Source: Saccoglossus kowalevskii (Eukaryota > Hemichordata > Enteropneusta > Harrimaniidae). From it: a DNA stretch of 21,815 nt. The first letter of the stretch is position 1; each line of letters starts with the position of its first letter. The translations under genes were made by a program, and so were the position numbers. Positions 1 to 18,304 of the stretch are shown piece after piece. Location: assembly GCF_000003605.2 (NCBI RefSeq), contig NW_003156238.1, positions 369,785 to 391,599 on the forward strand, written 5' to 3'. A model generated the notes under the pieces. It ran no database searches. It was not told the origin of the DNA and was given only the letters and a program-made list of their open reading frames with translations.

Positions 1-1478
1 TTAACTTGTGTGTGAAAATAGGTAAACAGTGACACATGAAAGGGAAAGCCGGAAGAAATAGGATCGTCTGGGAAATCGCATATGAAGTTTAAGTTGAAGG
101 TTGTCTTCTACAATTAAAATTAAAATTATTTAACGTAGTAATGATTTCATCTCATACTTCGGTATCTTAGGTCAATCTATCAAAAGTGTACAATACAACA
201 GAATGTATTAAACTATATTTTTGATTAAATACTTTCATAATGGGAAAGGATAGTAAGCATGATTTGAAGGACATCAAATGAGACGCGGCAAGATGTGGAT
301 TATAAATAAGAAAGCGGGACTGGGTTCAACAGTGGTAAATTACTATGGGATGCAATTGTGTGAGTTCGGGAGAAGCTGTAAAAAGAGGGACGGTTGGGAA
401 ATTCCAGAAGAGTAGGAAGCGCCAGGAGTGGACATAAGTGAGGGGGCACCAACTAGCGGATTTACTAATCCTGAATTCGCATGGTAACACGTGTAGTGTG
501 TGAGATTTGTTTGAATCATATAGTGAAAAGATATTCCCTATTTTTTGAATATGATATAGTCTTTTGTGATATTTTTACAATATTTTTATAATTGTTCTGT
601 TTTAGACACCCATCAGAAGGTAGAAAAATGCTTAAAAAAGTTTTTTCGGCATCTTTCGTCACAAGCAAGCATTTGCGCTAGATCAAGTCCTTATTTAGTA
701 AGGTTTTACGTCAGGGGCGATGACAAAATTAAAAATCATTTTTCGACCATTTTGGGGTCAAAATTCAAAACTGGTCCAATTCTTGAGATGCATATCAATT
801 CACTCATCTTGATTTATAATTTGACCTGTTTTTGATCTAGCGTTACGTAACAATGACCGAAAACATGGAAAGGTCAACATACTTTCTGTTGTGATCGTAA
901 ACTATGAGAGATTGTAAGCAAGAGACGAAAAACAACAAGCAAGAGGGACAGAGAAGGAAAAAAAATGAAGAAGTGCTGGAGTACCGAGGGGTAGTAAGTG
1001 AGTGAGTACGGGCAAGAAAGGGGTAGGCCAGGAACGTCTTAAGTGCGAGAAGAGATATCAAAGTGAAAGTAATAATTGAACAGTTCAAAAAAGGCCGTGG
1101 GAGAGATGGAATGCCGGGAGTGATAGAGAATCCAACAGGGGAAAAAGCTTGAAGCGTGGGCAGCATTGAAGGGGGATGATGGTCAGGGTGGTAACAAACT
1201 AAATGATTTCAATTTCTCGGGTAAAATTTTTCAAAAGTATTCAAAAATAAATCATACATATGCTTACAAAATACCATTTCCTTAGAATTCCAGCTGTTAT
1301 TATTGATTCGTAAAATAGGTAAATATAACAAAGATTTAAACATTATGTGATTAAAGTAAATATAAATATATGTTTAAGCAAGATGAAAAAGAAAGATGGG
1401 CCATAAGTGAGGAGAGCTGTTGGTGGTAGTAGGAAGAAGAAGGAGGCACACCTGAACAGAATCCCAGAATTCAGAAAT
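1..1478. repeat. Tandem array copy 1, left part (rearranged)
   Basis: This is the left part of a decayed tandem repeat. Bases 1-75 match 4911-4975 and 6955-7030. Bases 241-540 match 4970-5290 (shared landmarks: a GATGCAATTGTGTGAG block, and ATTTACTAAT followed by a GCAACAC/GTAACAC block). Bases 890-1465 match 5770-6355, including the CAGTTCAA(A/G)AAGGCCG block near 1079 and 6000. Bases 88-240 correspond to 5425-5570, so that segment sits out of order relative to copy 2 and this copy is rearranged. Bases about 590-885 have no counterpart in copy 2. I see no coding gene; the minus-strand frames at 843-1166 and 1343-1648 are low-complexity by-products of the purine-rich strand. Confidence 0.7.
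590..850. other. Segment not shared with other array copies
   Basis: At this point copy 1 stops matching copy 2 and resumes only near 885. The segment has short internal palindromes (CCTTATTTAGTAAGG near 690) and a plus-strand frame of 89 codons at 566-835. That frame starts inside the array-matching sequence and has no recognisable domain. It may be a small secondary insertion or a region deleted from the other copies. I see no protein-coding evidence. Confidence 0.35.
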
Positions 1479-1805
1479 AATCTTCTAGCCAAAAGGGTGG
1501 ACCTGGAAATGCCGAGTACAGTAAGGTTTTCTGATGGAAATGTAATGTATAGGTCCCAAGAACTCAGAAACTGATGGATGCTAATTTGCATATGTGTAGC
1601 ATTTTGCATAATTGACCTAATTAGCATATTAATTAGATCAAATAACAAAATCTACCATATCGTCCATAGTAAATCACATAGAGACCTAATTGTTGTGTCT
1701 ACACCTGTGTTTGTGACCCCAATGAACGAACTCATCTAACATGGTTAGACACCTACCACACTTCCAATCACTTGAAATCAAACAACCATAACCCAGTAAT
1801 CCTTA
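1479..1805 (+). repeat. Left terminal inverted repeat
   Basis: The reverse complement of the right end aligns along this stretch. Shared blocks include CCTGGAAATG followed by GAGTAC, ATGCTAATTTGC near 1578, GACCTAATTAGCAT near 1613, a TAGTAAATCACATAGA block near 1670, and weaker similarity inward to about 1805. The arms carry many substitutions and small indels, so the element is old. The arm length of about 320 bp is an eye alignment. Confidence 0.7.
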
Positions 1806-2109
1806 AACATTAAGACTTGGGATTGAGATCTAGAGCAATGTTTTGGGTCCCATAAATTTAATTTAGTATGTCCCCAAAATTCATGCCCACCTAAATTACA
1901 ATGTGGTCATAGAAAATTCATCAAGTGCTTCAAATAAATTAAAAAAAACTGCACTTCGATCTTTCCTTATGCATGCATCCAGGCGAATAAAAGAAAAGTG
2001 TCTTCAAAGAATATTTACCGACTCTCATTATTCTAATCAGATGAGTTCTTTTTAAAACATTTTTGTAATACTACATATTACATGAAACAATTTATCACAG
2101 TATTGTTCA

Positions 2110-2277
2110 ACATATAGCTCGTACTGTACTAATAATTAAATGATTTCTCTCTAAACTATTTATCTTTACAGATATCGCATATTTTACTTCAGAAATTGCA
2201 TCAAAGTATTTAACGTATAGCTCTTATTGTACTAATTATATAAGTTTTCTCTAAAATATTTATTTGTGTCTTGCAGA
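2110..2277 (+). repeat. Two copies of a ~103-bp direct repeat inside the element
   Basis: The segments at 2110-2175 and 2214-2277 share TATAGCTC, TGTACTAAT and a TTTCTCTCTAAA-type block, offset by about 103 bases. Each ends in something like a splice acceptor (TTTACAG then AT near 2171, and CTTGCAG then AT near 2276), upstream of the coding remnant. This may be a duplicated intron 3' end; that reading is inference. Confidence 0.5.
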
Positions 2278-2359
2278 TTATAATTACAAGAAGTTTCGTG
2301 AAAGCATTATATAGTAAACGACTGACATTATAGTAATACATTCTTTATTGCATAATGTC

Positions 2360-3256
2360 AAAGCAGTGCCTGTTTGCACCGTGTTTTGGAAGGAACTGGC
2401 ACACACAAGCCTAAAACACTATGGTCTTTGGTCCACTTATTGACTGCCCTCCATCCCATCCTGACACTGTCTTGACTACCATGGCATACCTTGATCAGAG
2501 GCTTAAGAGCCTTGGCATGGTTCAGGTTCATCTGACATTAGATATGCAACTCTACATAATCGCCTGCCTCATCAAGTGGAATGATTCTTTACGATGGAAG
2601 AGTATAGTTTTAAGACCAGGAATGATGCAAACGTTACTGTCTTTCATTGGCACCATCGGACACAATATAAAAGGTACATGTGCTGAGGAGGTTGTCGGTG
2701 CTGCATATTACCAATATATTCAATGGGAAGGCATGGCCAAAGGCGATGCTAGCCTTTCGTATGGTTGTTGCTGCACTTCTACATGATTTCCTGCAGGAAG
2801 GAGAGAAAAGTCATGAAGATATTGTTACCTACCTGAACAAGACGCAAAACAATCCCACGGGCAAACTCTGGGTTGATTGCTTCATCACTTCAACAATGCT
2901 TGCACACCAGTTTCTTAGGGCTGAGTGAGAGGGTGCATTCTTAGTGATTACACAGTTGTGTTTGTTCTGCTTGTATATTGGTGTTGGAAATCATGTATAT
3001 CATGTTGTGTTCAAATGGAAAAGTGGGAAGGGTCAGTGCTTGACAGTGCTTGGAGAGAAATGCAAAGGTATTTTGGCAATACATGCGCTATTGGGTGTGA
3101 CACAGTGTCTTATTGTAGTGGGAGAGGGAAAGTGTCTGCCATGAAAGTGCTCAACAATGCTGAAATAGCTGGGCCAGATTCAGTTCTGGGCGAGGAAGAT
3201 GCAACTCATAATGACTTGATAGCACATGGTACTGCGTACCAGTTACTGCATATGTG
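2360..3256 (+). pseudogene. Remnant of an uncharacterised multicopy metazoan family (GCDT motif)
   Basis: The coding potential is spread over several frames in one continuous order. (1) About 2360-2420 reads AVPVCTVFWKELAH. (2) 2421 to about 2705 holds IDCPPSHPDTVLTT, a LxLDMQLYIIACLIKWND-like core and RPGMMQTLLSFIGTIG. (3) About 2705-2928 holds NGKAWPKAM, a Leu/Ala-rich helix and PTGKLWVDCFI, ending at a TGA. (4) About 3040-3100 reads CKGILAIHAL. (5) About 3095-3256 reads GCDTVSYCSGRGK. From memory, this order (PPxHPDTVLTT, LWVDCFI, then an HALxGCDTxSYxxGKGK block) matches large uncharacterised proteins present in many copies in cnidarian, mollusc and amphioxus genomes; their function is unknown to me. 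At least three frameshifts, the stop at 2926-2928 and missing sequence between about 2930 and 3000 mean it cannot make the full protein. It lies inside TIRs, which suggests it was the element's cargo or its own gene. A transposase role is not shown. Confidence 0.65.
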
Positions 3257-3259
3257 ACG

Positions 3260-3900
3260 GAGGGAATGAGTGTTTCAACTTGCTGACGCAACGAGAAGGC
3301 GATAATGAGCAGGAGGAAAAAGACAGAAGATTTAGAGGAAAGAGAGATTGACTACGAAGATAAAGATTATTAAGGGTTGGGGTGTGTACCTCAGTTTTGC
3401 TCAGACAAAATGCATTATGCCGTATTTCAGGTGCATCCTGAAATTTGAGTACTAACTACTGGACTATTTAGTGCCATAGAGTAGTAATTGTTTGTGGTTT
3501 TGCATCTGTCCATATAATCATTGTCATTCTGTAATATATGAACTGAAGATATATCGAAATCAAGTAATTTATTGTATATTGTAGTTTAGTGCTTTTAACA
3601 CTCTCTCCTGTAATAATAATTATTACTAAAAAGTGTTAAATAAATGTCAAATGTTATTACAATATGCATTATTTTATTTGAAAGCCCGTGGATCTTTCGA
3701 TCACATCATACATTAAAACCATGTCCACATCCTAAGGAGATATATATTTGCCTTTATTTATTTAGCTACATTGTGGTTAGCATGTTTTAATATAGTGATA
3801 TTGATTTAAAAACATGCTAAATAAAATTTGTGGATAGCAAAACATTTAGGTACGGACACCAACAAGTGTTTATCGGCTATAACGATATGTCAATTTTATG
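3260..3900. other. Non-coding 3' half of the element
   Basis: The first ~110 bases are purine-rich (GAGGAAAAAGACAGAAG-like) and may be a decayed coding tail. The rest is AT-rich, with AATAAA-type signals (TTAAATAAATG near 3640). I see no open frame with recognisable protein content before the right TIR. Confidence 0.4.
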
Positions 3901-3904
3901 ACTT

Positions 3905-4230
3905 TCCTCATTATACATAGTGGTCATTTTTATTTGAAATGGGCAGAAGGATCGTATGGGCCTAAAACCATACTGGATGGGTTCTTTGGGTCAAATACAT
4001 GGGACTAGACACTCAAATCTATGTGATATACTAAAGAAGATATGGTATTTGTGATTTAACCTAATTTATATGCCAATTAGGTCAATTACAAAAAATGCTA
4101 CATATAAGCAAATTAGCATCCGGCTGTTTATGAGTCCTTAGGACCGGTATATTGAATTTCCACCACAACACCTTACAGTACTCACCATTTCCAGGTTCAC
4201 TGAAAAACACATAGGGTTGGCTAGTAGACT
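3905..4230 (-). repeat. Right terminal inverted repeat
   Basis: This is the reverse-complement partner of 1479-1805. The clearest blocks are GCCAATTAGGTCAATTA near 4071, AGCAAATTAGCAT near 4108, CAGTACTCACCATTTCCAGG near 4176 and GGCTAGTAGACT at 4219-4230. The array sequence resumes immediately beyond it. Confidence 0.7.
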
Positions 4231-4910
4231 AAAGGGATGGTAGGCAAAAGAGGGTAAACTGGAAGAGAAGCATACGCACAAGGGAGACAGCTGTAGTGGT
4301 GAGTTGAGGCTTGCGCGGTTCTTAATTGAGAGAGGGGGAGAGGAATGATCCATAAACGCAAGGGGGGTTCAGAGGAAGTGAATTGCCGTGAGAGGTCGAA
4401 AGGGACTGCAAGCGATAGCGGATTATAGGATAGATGTGTAGCAAGAGAAAGAGAAAGAGAGATATGTTAATGAGAGAAGGTTAAACATGCCCGGAAATGA
4501 AACAGTAGGTTTAAAAGAGGCCTCAAGTGAAAGAGAGAGAGGCATAATGATGCAATTCGAATCTCGATTTTACAGAGCAGCGTATGCGTTGTGTGTGTGT
4601 GTGTTGTTGTAATGCTATGGTGATAGAAAGGCTGGGGTTAGTACGTGATGTCATAATTCTTCGTTGTGTGTATAATCCCCGATATTTTCACATCGTTTTT
4701 TCTTCTTCTGTGATGTGTAACGTCAAATGTACATTACTACATTATATTGCGGTAGTTAAGTTAGAACAGATAAATAATGTTGATATTGTATATGATTAAG
4801 GTACTTTACTCAATTAAATGACCTGATTTTTACATGCAAATGATTCACCCACCTTTGGTAACAAATTTAATAATTGTTCTCAAAAGTACTGATTATGATT
4901 GTTTTTCGAA
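4231..4910. repeat. Tandem array copy 1, right part
   Basis: This sequence matches 6360-6950 of copy 2. Shared blocks include GGTGAGTTGAG followed by a TTCTTAATTGAGAGAGGGGGA block (near 4318 and 6448), GTAATGCTATGGTGATAGAAA (near 4608 and 6601), TTTTTTCTTCTTCTGTG (near 4697 and 6694) and TAGTTAAGTTAGAACAGA (near 4753 and 6760). It holds a (TG)n run at 4590-4604 and a GAGAAA-rich tract near 4446-4462. No coding gene was seen; the 71-codon frame at 4584-4799 reads through the repeat. Confidence 0.7.
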
Positions 4911-6954
4911 AATAGGTAAATATAACAGTGACATATGAAAGGGGAAGCCAGAAAGGATGGAATCCGGGAAAGTATGGTAGCATGAATGGAAGGGTAGTAA
5001 ATGAGTGGGAAAACCAGGAGGGGTGATGAAAATAGGGTAGCCAGGGGTGATTTACAAGTGATAAAGCGGGATGCAATTGTGTGAGGTTGGGGAGACGTAG
5101 GAATGAGGGACGGCTGGGAAATGCATGAAACGATACAGGGAGATTAAGTGAGGGGGAAACAACAGACACATTTACTAATCATAACTTCGCATAGCAACAC
5201 ACGCGGTGTGTGGGATTTGTTTGAATGATATTGTGAAGTAAAATCGAGGGTTGGTACAGTATGTTCAAATCTCTATTTTTAATATGGTATCGTGTATTGT
5301 ATGTGTATGTGATATTTGTACATTATTTTTCTATTTATTTATTTATTTATTTATTTTGTTTTGTATTTTATTAAATATATATTATCATCTTCTATGTTTA
5401 TATTTGAGCTACCGCAGCGTATCAAGTTGAAGTTGAAGATGGTATCCTTCTTTTCTAAATTTATTTTAACGTAGAAATGATTTCACCTCATACTTCTGTG
5501 TCTTAGTATACACATATCAACTCGAGAATAATGAAACGCGCACGAAATACTATTTCTTGTGACTGACAGCTGTTATCATTGCTTCGTGTAAAATCGATAA
5601 CTATGACATGAGCAATGTGAGCGTCAGGCAGGGTACATCATGAATACTTATTTTCAGCAAAAGAGGAGATCGGGAGAACTAAATGGCAAAACAGAGGTTG
5701 GGAAGGACTATAAAAGGTAAATGGGTAAAAATAAAAATGGACATGAACAATTTATGCTTCTGGGCAAGGGGTAAACTATGAATATATAGGAGTTAGGAAG
5801 GAAAGAGGACGGTAAGCAAAAGAAGGAGAACAAAAAACAAGAGGAATAGGCCAGGAAAAACAATGAATAAGAGCTGGAGGCCCGATAGTTAGTAAGTAAG
5901 GGATGGAGGCAGGCATGGTCTGTGAGCAAGGGCATAAGAGGACGAGGTCAGGAAGTCCATAAGTGCGAGAGGAGACATGAAGGTTGAAGAAATTGGTCAG
6001 TTCAAGAAGGGCCGTAGGTGAGAGGGGATTCAAGGAGTGGCAGTGAACTAGAGATAATCCAACAGGGACAGTAAGCGTGAATTGGAGGGCAGCATTGAAA
6101 GTGGCTGCCGGTCAGAATGGTAAATGACTAAATTATATCACTTTCTTAGGTAAAAATTTTCATAATTTTTCAAAATAAATTCGATATTCATATATATGCT
6201 TACAAAATATCAACTGTCTAGAATGACTATGTAAATATAACAAGGACTTTAGAATTCTGTGCTTTAATGCAAGATGATAAAGGGGTATATGATTGGCCAT
6301 AAGCGAGGACAGACTGTTGATGGCAGTAGTCAAGGAAGGTCACATTAGAACAGAATGCCGGTAGAAATGGTAAGGAAAAGAGGGAAACTTGGAGATAAGC
6401 ACCAGGAAGGGGGAGTAGGATACATTGGTGAGTTGAGTCTTGCATGATTCTTAATTGAGAGAGGGGGACTAGAAGGAACCACAAACGTATAGGGTCCAGG
6501 GTCGTGAATTACTGTAAGTGGTCTGGTGGGACTGCAATAGAAACAGGATGATAGGAGGGAGGCCAAATGATGCAATTGCGTATGCGTTGTGTGTGTTTTT
6601 TGTAATGCTATGGTGATAGAAAAGCTAGGGTTAATACATTATGTCACAATTCTTGGGTTTCTAATGTGTATAATCCTCATATTTTCACGTATTTTTTTCT
6701 TCTTCTGTGTTGCGTAACGTAAAATTCCTACATTCCTGCATTCCTACATTTTGTGGCGATAGTTAAGTTAGAACAGAAAAATTAATGTTAATATTGATTT
6801 TGATTTCATATTCAAATTTATACCATTACAGATTTCAGTTTCTAGGGTAAATATTTTCATATTTATTTTTAAAGGTACTGAAACATAAAATCGATATTCA
6901 TACAAACGCCTACCAAATACTATTTGTCGAGATGGCAGCTGTTTTTGCGAAAAT
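4911..6954. repeat. Tandem array copy 2 (about 2.04 kb, most complete)
   Basis: This is the fullest copy of the unit, running from the landmark GGTAAATATAACAGTGAC (4914) to the equivalent point at 6955. Related landmarks also occur inside it near 5594 (CGATAACTATGACATG) and 6230 (GTAAATATAACAAGG), spaced about 640-730 bases. This suggests three subunits per unit, each with an AT-rich block followed by a purine-rich block. Minus-strand frames (4867-5169, 5708-6033, 6227-6575) translate the pyrimidine-rich complement and have no domain character. Confidence 0.7.
5332..5357. repeat. (TTTA)n microsatellite
   Basis: A run of about six TATT/TTTA units lies inside array copy 2 and is absent from the equivalent positions of copies 1 and 3. 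Confidence 0.85.
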
Positions 6955-7600
6955 CGGTAATTATAATAGTGACAAATGCCAGAAGGCATTAAACCAAAAG
7001 ATGGAATCCGGGAAAGGGGCGATTGGGAAATGCAGAAAGGATATAGGAATATTAGGAGAAGCCACATGTTAGAGAGACAGACCAGAATAGGCCACAAGTG
7101 AGAGGGGTACCAACTGACGCATTTACTAATTCTGAGTTGGCATAGCAACACAGTCAGTGCATGCGATTTGTTTGAATGATATGGGTTGGAACAGGATGTC
7201 CAAATCCCTATTTTTAATATCATGTTGTGTAATGTTTTAAAATATTTGTTTATTTTATATTTAATTATATGTTATCATATTCTATGTTGATATACACGCT
7301 ATCGAAGCATATAAAGTTGAAGACGGTCTCCTATTTTTCTAAATTTATTCATACTTCGGTATCTTAGGTCAGCTTTTACAAGTATACAAATATCACCTCG
7401 ATAATTATAGAGCGCTCACTAAATATTTTTTGTTGTGAGTGACAGCTATCATCGTTGCTTCGTGTGAAATCGATAATTGTGACATGAGCAATGTGTGCTT
7501 TAGGTAGTGTCAATTATAAATACATATTTTAAGCCAAGGAGGAGGTCGAGAGAAACTAGAGAAAAAGGATACTAGAAAGGGTTATAAGCGAAAAAGCGAA
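6955..7600. repeat. Tandem array copy 3, truncated
   Basis: This stretch follows the same order as 4911 onward, but shortened. GATGGAATCCGGGAAAG at 7001 corresponds to 4957, and ATTTACTAAT then GCATAGCAACAC near 7121-7151 corresponds to about 5170-5200. CATACTTCGGTATCTTAGGTCA near 7350 matches 160 and 5490, and GTGACATGAGCAATGTG near 7479 matches 5605. Similarity fades after about 7600, which I take as the end of the array. Confidence 0.65.
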
Positions 7601-7850: not shown

Positions 7851-7931
7851 AAATGTGCATCCGGACTCTGTATTTTGAAATGTGCATCCGGGCTCTGTAT
7901 TTTGAAATGTGCATACGGACTGTGTATTTTT
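7851..7931. repeat. 27-bp minisatellite, 3 contiguous copies
   Basis: Three head-to-tail copies begin at 7851, 7878 and 7905, each starting AAATGTGCATCCGGACTC or a one- to three-base variant. There are no spacers, so it is not a CRISPR array. Confidence 0.9.
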
Positions 7932-13900: not shown

Positions 13901-16900
13901 GAAAACATAGACCACAATAAAGATGGGTCACTTAATTTAACAACATTAATAGTACGCAACCCTTCTGTTACAGAATTGTCCCCTATGTCTATTTGAGGTT
14001 ATATTATTATTATTATTATTATTAAATCTTTATCGCAGGATATAAAGTGAAAAATACGCACATCCCATATTAAAAAAACAATAACAAACAATAAACATAA
14101 ACAAACAAAGAAAAAAAACGAATATATAAAAAGGCTTGACTAATAAATAAATAATTCATTGTTTCAGTGTGTTTCAAGTACTCAAAAATAAAAATAATAT
14201 TGCTGTACGAGTGATTCATTTAATTCAACAAAATTGACCAGTAGTTTAAGTGATTTTTTTATCATACAGAATTTTTCCATATGTATATTAGAGTTTATAA
14301 ACGGCATGTGTGATGGTCCTTTGTAGCGGATATGATGTCTTCATGTACGAAAAACACCTCAACTCATGCGCACGCGCTGCTTTGTGTAAATTTCTAATTC
14401 TTCCAAAGTTTTTTGCTCTTAGATAATACTACTGTACTATAGGGGGTCATCGAAAAGCCATATGTTTTGAAAAACACCAAACCCTTTGATAATTCTGAAA
14501 ATATAATACCATGATATTCACTGATTTGATTTTTATAATGATTTGCGCGTGGATTTATGTGAACTGGCATTCTAATTTATTTTGAGAGATTAGAATGTGG
14601 TGCGCTTTCAAGATCTCGTATTGGAGTTCCAGGGCTAAAACGTATTTCATAGAACAATCTCATAGATGAGCGAGGCGCATTACTAAATCGATAAAATATG
14701 TAGTATATATAACCACGAAATATCGGTAGTATCGATCATACACTACTTTTGTACATGAACGATGTAAAAAAGCAAAAATAACAATGTTTATAGTTGTCTA
14801 TTCACGAAACAGATCCGGTGAATAACAGATAATGAGTTTTCTCGCAAAATGCGCAATATATATCATTTTGGCAATGCTAATTCGTATTAGTACTTGTACC
14901 AGATTTACCTGTTTTGATTGACATTCCTAGATATTTAACACAGTTTATTCAGTTTTGGGTGGCATTACAGGTCTTCTACTGTTGAATATAGTTTTTTGCT
15001 TTAGCCAATACAATGGACTAGATTCAGACTAACCACGTTATAATTCAAGTTATAGCCTGAGAGTACTAACAGTGTTCTTCCCAATTTATTTGATTAAAAC
15101 AAAATAGTTTTATGTCGTTACCAGATGATACCAAATGCACTGATGCCCCTTATTGGGGTAAATGTGATGATATTACAAAGACACCTTGTGAAAATGGTGA
15201 TTATAGGCATGGTAATCCTAAATTATGTTCCGGACCTGTTCATAGACAGTGCTGCATAGATGGGTAAGTCTAACTGTCTATTAATTCATTATTAAAATGG
15301 TTGTACTCTAGTCGTTTATTATTCGATACGAATATAACCTTAATTATCAAAACTTGTTTTTTTATAACATGAATACTGGCATATGAGATATGTGATTGTT
15401 CTACAAAACATACGGAAAAAAGAAACAAACTATATATTAACATTTTATCATTTATATATGCGTATTCGCATCACTAAAATAAGCTGTGATTCTAATATAT
15501 ATAATTCTGTCTGTTATTTATAAAACTACGGTAGAAGATGCTACTTGTCTATATATAATCATCGTAAATTAATATTCTATTCCATTCTATTATTAGATGT
15601 GTGGATTACCTTGAAGGTGCGTAAAACAATCGATTGGTTAACATTTATATACATGTCTAAGCGTATTAATACTAGTCCATTTTCAAATTTTTTGAAGAAT
15701 TTTAAATGTAAACTTTATGTTACAGTTGATGACAAGGAAGTTCTCACTCAGTGTCATGTGTATGGCGGATGCTGTAGACCTTTCTGTGAACCACCAGAAG
15801 TAGAAACGGAAGAATATTCTTGTGAAATAACAAATAGGGATGGGAACATCATTGGAACACATTGTAAATGTTGTATAAGTGAGTTGATTTTGTATTTAAA
15901 AAATACTAAATACATGAACACATATATTACCGGATATCCGCACTTTTGTTTTAAATTTCATTCCTATATAACATATTCCCCCGTCTCTTTATTTCATACA
16001 TTGACTAACTTGTATATATTTTTTTGTTTTTGTAGTTCCAGGTGGTGAACCAGTGATTGGTAAGTGTGAATATTATATATTATTTTATATTTGTCTTTTA
16101 AAACAATATTCAATTTCTGAATGCACAAAATAAATCTAAAAAACTGTGCCATCATGGGAAATATGACAAAACTCCACACCCTTCCCGTGGCTTTCGTTGC
16201 GTATAGAAGTTATTTTCACGAGTGATACGGTGCATTCTGCGGCCGTACTTTCTTGAGCTAAGCGAGTGAAAGTACAGCAGAATACACCGCATCTTTAGTG
16301 TAGAATTTAGAATGCGTCTGTGTGAAAATAAAATAATCAGACGTCTAATCTGAATCACTGTTCGAATAAATAACTCGTGGACGTTTAGTTGGGGACATGA
16401 CAAAATCAGAACTTGAACTGGATTATGATACAAAGTTTATGTTGAAGTTAAAAGTTCCTCCACAGAGTTGTACTGCATTGGCAAACATGCCGTGCAACTA
16501 CGGTACTCCACTGACGGGATGACTTTCGTCGACAGCGGTCGTCACTAAGCTGCACGCTACAACTTCGTTTGTAATGTTGCTTTGTGGTTGTTGATTCAAT
16601 GAGTCTTAGTTGCTGGTCAAAATGTCGTTCATTTGGCTTTAATAATCTTTATTTGAAACTGAGTAACGCCGCAACGTCACCAGCAGAAATCTTCTGGTAT
16701 CTCGATGTTGACGTAATCACTGAGAGCCGAGAGCCCTTCAAGGCAGCTTCAAGGTTCATAAAACTCAGTACCAGGTGTTCGACATACATTATGTTCTCCC
16801 AGTCGTAGTATTCCATGCTGTGTACACCTAGTATGCCAAAAATGTTGCTGAACGATTTGAATCGCATAAAAATAGCAGACGAAACGGTGTTTACAAAATA

Positions 16901-18304
16901 AAAATAGTTCGGTATCCAATAGAAATACCATGTTAATTTGCATATCGACCGTGAAAATACAGAAAACATTATTGCATGGTGATATGCAAATTAGTTTAGT
17001 CAAAATGAATGACTGCCTATAAGTACCATTACTGATGTTCAAATTTCATTTCACTTGGCAAGTATATTCATGTACCCCAAAGGAAAAATTTCGTACTTCT
17101 AAATATTGTTTATTTCTGCTATGTTTCGAAAATCGGTACTCCAGAAGGAACTGTTTTGTTTTTCTCATTTGCATATGGGATGTGAAAATACCGATTTTGA
17201 TTTCAGGGACGAATCAAAATAAACTGCAGTACATTTGTAATAATTATGTCAAATATTTTGTCGTTAATAATAGTATTATAAGGCAGGAATGTATTTATAA
17301 TATCTAATCAACTTATTTCTACCACTGTAGGAGTGAGAGGGGATCCGCATTTTATCACACTTGACAGCCAAAAGTACAATTTTAATGGCCACTGTTCCTA
17401 CGTATTGTTGAGAGAATGCACAAATCCTTTGGGAACTCCACGTTTTACTGTGACTACTAAACACAGTTTGATGGAAAGCTTAAGAAGGAATTTAAAACCA
17501 TATGTCGACAGCACATCGGTCATCGTAGGGGCATTCCGAGCTGATCTTTTGCACGGCAATTTAGTTTCAGTAAGTAATTAAAAACAAATAATCATAAAAT
17601 AACCATTATAGATAGATAAATTATACAGATAAATATGCCAAGACTGCAATTTTAAATTTACATATGATTTTTCTTAATAGTTCACTCCATGTATACAGTT
17701 TTATGCTCTGCCTAATATGTACTCCATGCAAATATGATGATGTATGCATCATGATACAACAATAGTAAACTATTTACTACATTTTTCAGATCAATAATGA
17801 ACCTGCAGTGCATATTCATGAGTTAAGAGGATGGAACAAAACAGATAAAGGCATCACTGTGACACCAGACAAGGGCATGGTTAAAGTAGACGTAGAGGGT
17901 GAATTTACTGTATGGTTTAATGGTAATGGACGTGTCAATGTCGCCATTGATCGACAGTATCACGGGAAAGTGTGTGGTTTACTTGGCAACGCCAATGACA
18001 ATTCCGATGACGATTTCCAGAAATTGACAACTAATGGTTTGGAATTGGTCACGGACATAGATGAATTTGCAAATAGTTGGGTTGTGCCGAATAGGTGAGT
18101 GATTAAATTGTAATAGATGTTTTTTGGTTGGAGAATGAATGAATAGTCATATATCAACTGTTAATATTACGTTCAGCGTATATGTGAAAAATGAACAAAA
18201 TTATGGTTGACAGTAATATTTCACTTGATGTGTGTGGGACGTTTACCGTGTCATTTGCCATTTACACATCTAATAGTGTTTTTCTTCTCCGCAGTTGTCC
18301 GTGA
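10901..18304 (+). CDS. Secreted Cys-rich module / vWD-domain protein (13 exons, complete)
   Basis: Hand-assembled model: 10901-10978, 11265-11292, 11469-11666, 12595-12705, 13289-13402, 13608-13730, 15125-15263, 15540-15568, 15726-15878, 16036-16059, 17331-17569, 17790-18094, 18295-18304. The coding total is 1551 nt, giving 516 residues and a TGA. Residues 1-22 look like a signal peptide. Residues about 36-138 are two irregular Cys-rich exons, about 139-263 three six-Cys modules, and about 274-324 an eight-Cys segment. Residues about 336-516 are a vWD domain, opening GDPHF and containing the GKVCGLLGNANDNSDDDF core. From family knowledge, vWD domains occur in mucins, VWF, BMPER, vitellogenins and matrix proteins, and support adhesion, assembly or ligand binding outside the cell. 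I do not recognise this exact architecture and give no symbol. Role (matrix, mucus or humoral immune protein) is inferred. All introns are GT-AG and all phases agree. The weakest link is microexon 8. Confidence 0.75.
11265..11292 (+). CDS. Exon 2: 28-nt microexon
   Basis: Exon 1 ends in phase 0, but exon 3 needs one extra base before it. This 28-nt segment supplies exactly that shift. It is flanked by TTTTTCACAG on the left and GTAAGTAT on the right, both near consensus, and encodes nine residues (LSHSLDLRH) without a stop. It carries no cysteine and probably forms a linker after the signal peptide. Confidence 0.65.
11469..11666 (+). CDS. Exon 3: acidic six-Cys segment
   Basis: The segment runs from IEDDNC to YPRL, with the pattern C-x12-C-x16-C-x6-C-x5-C-x5-C and many Asp/Glu residues. 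The acceptor is TTTAACAG and the donor is GTGAGT; entry and exit are both phase 1. The word DKPCL near its end recurs at the start of exon 4. I do not recognise the fold. The apparent TTG start at 11438 is intronic. Confidence 0.8.
12595..12705 (+). CDS. Exon 4: short Cys-rich module
   Basis: Entry after TTTATAG and exit at GTAAGT are both phase 1. The pattern is C-x6-C-x15-C-x1-C-x3-C, starting DKPCL and ending CPCDYDC. If the donor were not used, the frame would run on for about 20 residues (two more Cys) to a TAA at 12762-12764. A shorter secreted isoform is therefore possible, though unproven. Confidence 0.75.
13289..13402 (+). CDS. Exon 5: six-Cys module 1
   Basis: This exon is one module with the pattern C-x5-C-x6-C-x8-C-x5-CC. 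Entry is phase 1 after TTCTTTAG and exit is phase 1 at GTAAGA. The vicinal C-terminal Cys pair and the spacing are shared with exons 6 and 7. The exon is too short to stand out as an open frame, but the splice sites and cysteine pattern support it. Confidence 0.75.
13608..13730 (+). CDS. Exon 6: six-Cys module 2
   Basis: The pattern is C-x6-C-x6-C-x8-C-x7-CC, from DDTKC to QCCV, with flanks ATTATGACAG and GTAAAC and phase 1-1. From memory, G-x-C...C-x-G...C-x-G...QCC modules of this kind occur next to lysozyme or peptidase domains in invertebrates and fungi. This exon shares DDTKC and the AGACAGTGCTG word with exon 7, pointing to exon duplication. Confidence 0.8.
13731..15124. other. Intron 6 (1.4 kb) with repeat debris
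   Basis: The intron holds a perfect 19-bp direct repeat (13765-13783 and 14166-14184) and a (TTA)n run. A possible retroelement 3' tail reads leftward from about 14150. No further exon with the module pattern was found between exons 6 and 7. Confidence 0.5.
14002..14150 (-). mobile_element. Possible 3' end of a non-LTR retroelement, (TTA)n tail
   Basis: Read on the minus strand, the segment ends in CTGCGATAAAGATTTAATAAT followed by several AAT units. An AATAAAG-like word next to a short tandem tail is typical of LINE or LINE-dependent SINE 3' ends. Only the tail is recognisable and the upstream limit is a guess. Confidence 0.35.
15125..15263 (+). CDS. Exon 7: six-Cys module 3
   Basis: The pattern is C-x8-C-x7-C-x12-C-x7-CC, from DDTKC to QCCIDG, with longer loops than modules 1 and 2. 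It enters in phase 1 after GTTACCAG but leaves in phase 2 at a strong donor (GG/GTAAGT). This breaks the phase 1 series and is the reason an extra microexon is needed before exon 9. Confidence 0.8.
15540..15568 (+). CDS. Exon 8: predicted 29-nt (or 26-nt) microexon
   Basis: Exon 7 leaves in phase 2 and exon 9 enters in phase 1, so a segment of length 3n+2 is required. The stretch after CTACGGTAG, ending at CATC/GTAAAT, is 29 nt and open (RCYLSIYNH). Using the AG three bases later gives 26 nt, also in frame. The acceptor has a weak polypyrimidine tract and the donor is only moderate. An alternative is an extended exon 9 starting after ATACTAG near 15674, which also fits the phase. Confidence 0.4.
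15726..15878 (+). CDS. Exon 9: eight-Cys segment
   Basis: The pattern is C-x5-CC-x3-C-x11-C-x13-C-x1-CC, starting DDKEV and ending CKCCI. Entry is phase 1 after ATGTTACAG and exit is phase 1 at GTGAGT. The two vicinal Cys pairs recall vWC-like or TIL-like disulfide-rich modules that often precede vWD domains, but the spacing fits neither clearly. Sequence upstream of 15726 in the same open frame (from 15545) is intron. Confidence 0.75.
16036..16059 (+). CDS. Exon 10: 24-nt microexon linker
   Basis: A strong acceptor (TTTTTGTTTTTGTAG) and donor (GTAAGTG) enclose 24 nt encoding PGGEPVI plus split codons, phase 1 in and phase 1 out. It is a Gly/Pro linker between the Cys-rich half and the vWD domain. 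Skipping it would keep the frame. Confidence 0.65.
16210..16331. repeat. Nested foldback palindrome (MITE-like)
   Basis: The inner arms at 16224-16252 and 16268-16293 are reverse complements apart from two substitutions and a 3-4 base bulge, with a ~15-base loop. The outer arms TTATTTTCAC (16210) and GTGAAAATAA (16322) extend the palindrome. The structure fits a small foldback element. Confidence 0.65.
16649..16900 (-). pseudogene. Possible decayed coding remnant, family unknown
   Basis: The minus strand has an open stretch of varied, protein-like composition (EYYDWENIM, then NLEAALKGSRLSVI, then AGDVAALLSF). It ends in TAA, with an AATAAAG-like word overlapping the stop. This looks like the 3' end of a gene copied or inserted into the intron. 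I do not recognise the family, and chance is not excluded. Confidence 0.25.
17331..17569 (+). CDS. Exon 11: vWD domain, N-terminal half
   Basis: It opens with VRGDPHFITLDSQKYNF, the diagnostic vWD start, followed by GHCSYVLLREC and a long segment ending GNLVS. Entry is phase 1 after CCACTGTAG and exit is phase 0 at TCA/GTAAGT. Only two cysteines are present here. Confidence 0.9.
17790..18094 (+). CDS. Exon 12: vWD domain, C-terminal half
   Basis: It carries VEGEFTVWFNGNGRVNVAID, then YHGKVCGLLGNANDNSDDDF and DEFANSW, which are typical of the second half of vWD. The Asn/Asp-rich loop after GLLG fits the calcium-binding loop known in this family. The usual second Cys of the CGxCG motif is Leu here. 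Phase 0 entry after TTTTTCAG, phase 2 exit at GTGAGT. Confidence 0.9.
18295..18304 (+). CDS. Exon 13: last two codons and stop
   Basis: After TTCTTCTCCGCAG, one base completes the Ser codon and is followed by Cys, Pro and TGA. A closing Ser-Cys right after FANSW-like sequence is what a complete vWD domain shows, which supports this tiny terminal exon. Confidence 0.75.

Follow-up and report, generated by a model that had tools for sequence, protein, structure and literature searches.

A decayed GCDT-bearing coding remnant between long terminal inverted repeats, inserted into a tandem repeat of Saccoglossus kowalevskii

We analysed a stretch of 21,815 nucleotides from Saccoglossus kowalevskii (called the window). 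Positions 1-7554 of the window are occupied by a degenerate tandem repeat with a unit of ~1.95 kb, and one of its units is broken by an element of 2754 bp bounded at ~1478 and ~4231. The element carries terminal inverted repeats (TIRs) at its ends and a decayed coding remnant in three pieces between them; the coordinates of these features and of the matching uninterrupted site are collected in Table 1. Beyond the array, a 27-bp minisatellite is present in three copies at 7851-7930, and exon-like frames on the + strand at 17282-17581 (E 3.8e-9) and 17769-18098 (E 2.5e-10) match PF00094, the von Willebrand factor type D domain, which marks the window as very probably animal. The arms of a second inverted pair (14059-14088 / 17155-17184), separated by 3.07 kb, agree at 80% over 30 bp and without mismatch in the outer 12 bp; this pair could be either another TIR element or a chance occurrence.

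Table 1. Features of the element and of its insertion site, in window positions
Feature	Position	Strand	Remarks
Left flank, ~1.95-kb tandem repeat unit broken by the element	914..1465	+	matches 5812-6359 in two pieces
Left TIR	1478..1746	+	weak similarity on to ~1805; palindrome 1590-1660 within
Piece 1, N-terminal part of transposase-like protein	2433..2708	+	frame 2415-2786; baits N_biv, N_arth
Piece 2, shifted frame, in-frame TGA near end	2713..2934	+	baits N_biv, N_arth, A1_1
Piece 3, GCDT motif	2937..3239	+	frame 2925-3257; baits A2_1, A2_2
Right TIR	3966..4231	-	weak similarity inward to ~3905
Right flank, continues the left-flank repeat unit	4237..4972	+	matches 6367-7016 in three pieces
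Empty (uninterrupted) insertion site, next repeat unit	6360..6366	.	flank matches

The original prediction held that the coding remnant is enclosed by inverted repeats of ~320 bp. Comparison of 1479-1805 with the reverse complement of 3905-4230 confirmed that the inverted repeats are real. Local alignment paired 1497-1746 with 3966-4200 in reverse complement; of the 235 ungapped columns 191 match and 44 do not, and there are gaps in addition. The identity between the left and right TIR is thus 81%, and the alignment score of 205 compares with a maximum of 31 among 200 dinucleotide shuffles. The outermost 15 bp (1478-1492 / 4217-4231) are identical at 13 positions, an agreement equalled by one of 2000 plain shuffles. 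A chance inverted repeat was ruled out by these two shuffle comparisons. Similarity between the TIRs is weak inward of ~1746 and ~3966, and the predicted length therefore stands in part, ~270 bp being firm and ~320 bp the upper figure. The left TIR was also found by blastn to be palindromic with itself. Apart from this palindrome, blastn detected no further copy of either TIR inside the window, the other matches having E >=0.24. Two TIR patterns gave 0 matches in a collection of viral contigs that need not contain animal DNA. The DNA fold of the left TIR was unremarkable (z -1.62, equalled by 7 of 100 shuffles), and nothing reached the gathering score in Rfam.

The position of the element within the tandem repeat was examined by matching its flanks to the next unit. 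Spacing of the units is 1951 bp (5145 to 7096) and, after subtracting the element, ~1956 bp (435 to 5145). The array is partly out of order, in that 78-170 matches 5417-5506 but 347-527 matches 5068-5237. On the left, 914-1276 and 1378-1465 match 5812-6212 and 6269-6359, at 69 and 73%; on the right, 4237-4430, 4580-4797 and 4900-4972 match 6367-6556, 6578-6805 and 6940-7016, at 73-78%. The flank matches stop at 6359 and resume at 6367, so that only 7 bp separate the two flanks in the empty unit. Thus, the next unit is unbroken at this place, and the prediction that the element interrupts another repeat cleanly at a single point was borne out. With flank identities of 69-78%, compared to 81% between the TIRs, the duplication of the repeat units and the insertion are both old. 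No target-site duplication (TSD) was legible by eye at the junctions. The best candidates found in this way were AAAT at 1475-1478 with AAAG at 4231-4234 (3/4) and AGAAA at 1473-1477 with AGGGA at 4233-4237 (3/5), and in the empty unit AGAAA stands at 6363-6367. An illegible TSD, together with the single copy seen in the window, would be in keeping with the decay of a host gene or retrocopy lying between chance or unrelated inverted repeats. However, the TIRs sit where the flanking tandem repeat stops and restarts, and we regard this explanation as highly improbable. That the locus is a mobile-element insertion is well supported.

The coding remnant is carried by the stop-to-stop frames 2415-2786 and 2925-3257 (+) and by a stretch in the third frame between them. 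These two frames gave zero matches in Pfam at E up to 10. Other window pieces and read-throughs remained below the cut-off for every Pfam and NCBIfam family (a weak row was HTH_62, 0.15), no solved structure in the PDB was matched by the window pieces (best E 0.18, saxiphilin), and no helicase match was found in the pieces scanned from a gene of which much is missing. An AlphaFold model of a 169-residue read-through had a mean pLDDT of 42.3. Proteins bearing the GCDT motif belong to what we take to be an abundant invertebrate family. Seven stretches representing such proteins were composed for this comparison, and five of them were run as baits against the window, with 100 shuffles of each bait as controls (shuffle maxima 23.5-26.6 bits). 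Since the baits were composed with the window sequence already seen, their matches represent a strengthened lead and not an independent database match.

All five baits matched the element in collinear order at 35.0-43.5 bits, each above its own shuffles. Piece 1 was matched by residues 1-79 of N_biv (40.8 bits, shuffle maximum 25.0) and 1-94 of N_arth (43.5 bits, shuffle maximum 25.4). Further along, N_biv 101-141 matched 2713-2823 in a different frame, and N_arth 177-205 matched 2845-2934. The match of A1_1 runs from 2860 to 3069 (35.0 bits); its strong part stops at ~2934, and it overlaps the A2 match in a different frame. Piece 3 was matched over its full extent by A2_1 (37.0 bits, shuffle maximum 26.6) and A2_2 (38.9 bits, shuffle maximum 23.5). 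Truncation of these two baits before GCDT lowered their scores at this location to 25.4 and 23.5 bits, which do not exceed the respective shuffle maxima of 25.8 and 25.4. Nine rows with E <=0.05, including two from the GCDT-less baits, all fall within 2433-3239. No relatives were confirmed in viral contigs and genome contigs, nor with A1 row 1 in phages or with A2 row 1 in plasmids; these collections are not animal genomes, and the result carries little weight.

Gene fragments within TIRs can be captures, and the element may in principle be a non-autonomous TIR transposon driven by a foreign transposase, with the GCDT gene either captured by it or having invaded it. Against this, the remnant is central, lies on a single strand and is collinear with a transposase-like family, there is no sign of a second insertion, and one extra event would be required. 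We therefore consider capture or invasion very unlikely, and the carried gene is, most likely, a decayed transposase belonging to the element itself. With its TIRs, the interruption of the repeat at one point and the enclosed, collinear gene remnant, the locus upholds, for this one copy, the original prediction of a mobile element carrying the GCDT family.

We then considered the identity of the protein. Among the baits, N_biv falls clearly within Pfam DUF6589 (PF20231; 5.8e-13, 48.7 bits versus a cut-off of 27). Three A1 rows matched DUF6589 weakly (best 8.5e-5), with row 1 at 20.1 bits and thus under the cut-off, and N_arth gave no DUF6589 match. The likeness of the window to DUF6589 is through N_biv, a bait that matches the window and belongs to the domain; in contrast, the window's own pieces did not reach the 27-bit cut-off, and the GCDT part lies outside the domain. 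In Pfam the domain is still annotated with 'unknown function', and no papers mentioning DUF6589 were found in a limited literature collection.

The GCDT stretch of the family presumably resembles FEN/XPG nucleases in the order of its motifs. A two-row profile of composed sequences compared by hhalign with two FEN-1 sequences, all of these profiles being very shallow, gave a probability of 0.2%, which was under that of the A1 control (1.1%). FEN and XPG were absent from the 13 PDB rows of the A2 profile, among which those with E just <0.001 were a designed TIM barrel and AvrBs3, repeat proteins in which no single stretch passes. The A1 profile returned two interferon-gamma rows from the PDB, and the sole row for A2 row 1 against the families was RNA polymerase Rpb5 (0.098). 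We think that the GCDT-bearing part is a PIN/FEN-like nuclease region.

AcademX elements, a lineage of the Academ superfamily, encode a nuclease of the XPG/FEN-like type. The defining paper for this lineage is reportedly Kojima 2020 (Mob DNA 11:15). That the DUF6589 protein is the Academ transposase is our assumption. PMC10045372 ties the two Academ lineages to a helicase and a nuclease, and gives TSDs of 3-4 bp for AcademX and 9-10 bp for AcademH. Bivalves are rich in Academ, with 100 curated elements of mean length 5565 bp according to PMC10294476. The element described here is like Academ/AcademX in being a TIR element of an invertebrate-like genome with a transposase-like protein and a putative nuclease region. 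It differs in being half the mean length, with a broken frame and an illegible TSD, and the FEN/XPG comparison lent no support. The family had been described as uncharacterised, which is still true of DUF6589 in Pfam but not of its likely home, a named superfamily that encodes a nuclease.

The element may instead belong to another or a not-yet-named DNA transposon superfamily whose transposase is the DUF6589/GCDT protein. The assumed nature of the link to Academ, the 'unknown function' entry, the failure to find DUF6589 in the limited literature collection and the outcome of the FEN/XPG comparison are consistent with this possibility, but a named superfamily with nuclease-encoding members exists and is abundant in invertebrates such as bivalves (PMC10045372 and PMC10294476), and we hold a different superfamily to be unlikely. 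Kolobok, one such candidate, resembles the element as a DDE-type TIR superfamily common among invertebrates and, according to PMC9587614, has a TTAA target duplication and 5'-RR ... YY-3' termini. Such termini fit ends at 1479/4230 (AA/AG) and not at 1478/4231 (TA), the exact end not being fixed. Both element junctions are without the TTAA duplication, TTAA being absent by eye from 1465-1495 and 4215-4245, and Kolobok was rejected. A further idea, that the abundant DUF6589/GCDT proteins of invertebrates are a separate kind of transposase, outside the superfamilies named so far, with a built-in nuclease region and that the TIR unit is a fossil of the mobile form, appears unlikely to us.

Taken as a whole, the element is probably a dead, internally deleted cut-and-paste transposon of the DDE type whose own transposase was the GCDT protein, with Academ/AcademX as its most likely assignment. 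Membership in Academ is probable and the AcademX lineage likely, a placement that draws on PMC10045372 and on the assumed link between DUF6589 and the Academ transposase. An old copy of the transposon, with TIRs of ~270-320 bp, would have inserted into one unit of the tandem repeat. The transposase would comprise an N-terminal DUF6589-related part and the GCDT-bearing PIN/FEN-like nuclease region; it may have bound the TIRs, excised the element and joined it to a new site, with the nuclease region assisting in the processing of the ends. The middle of the element may have been lost by internal deletion, as suggested by the presumed layout of the protein and by the length of 2754 bp, about half of the Academ mean in PMC10294476. 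Several results speak against this explanation: the window pieces have no match to a family or solved structure, the baits were composed after the window had been read, the A2 baits truncated before GCDT stay within their shuffles, N_arth does not match DUF6589, the FEN-1 comparison fell below its control, and a clear TSD and a second copy in the window are lacking.

The likely explanation of the observation is thus an ordinary one, and nothing new is learned about mechanism. The locus provides a concrete case of a GCDT gene within a TIR unit that is visibly inserted in a repeat. If this is general, many multicopy 'uncharacterised' invertebrate genes would be transposase remnants, to be masked, and Pfam DUF6589 could receive a name.
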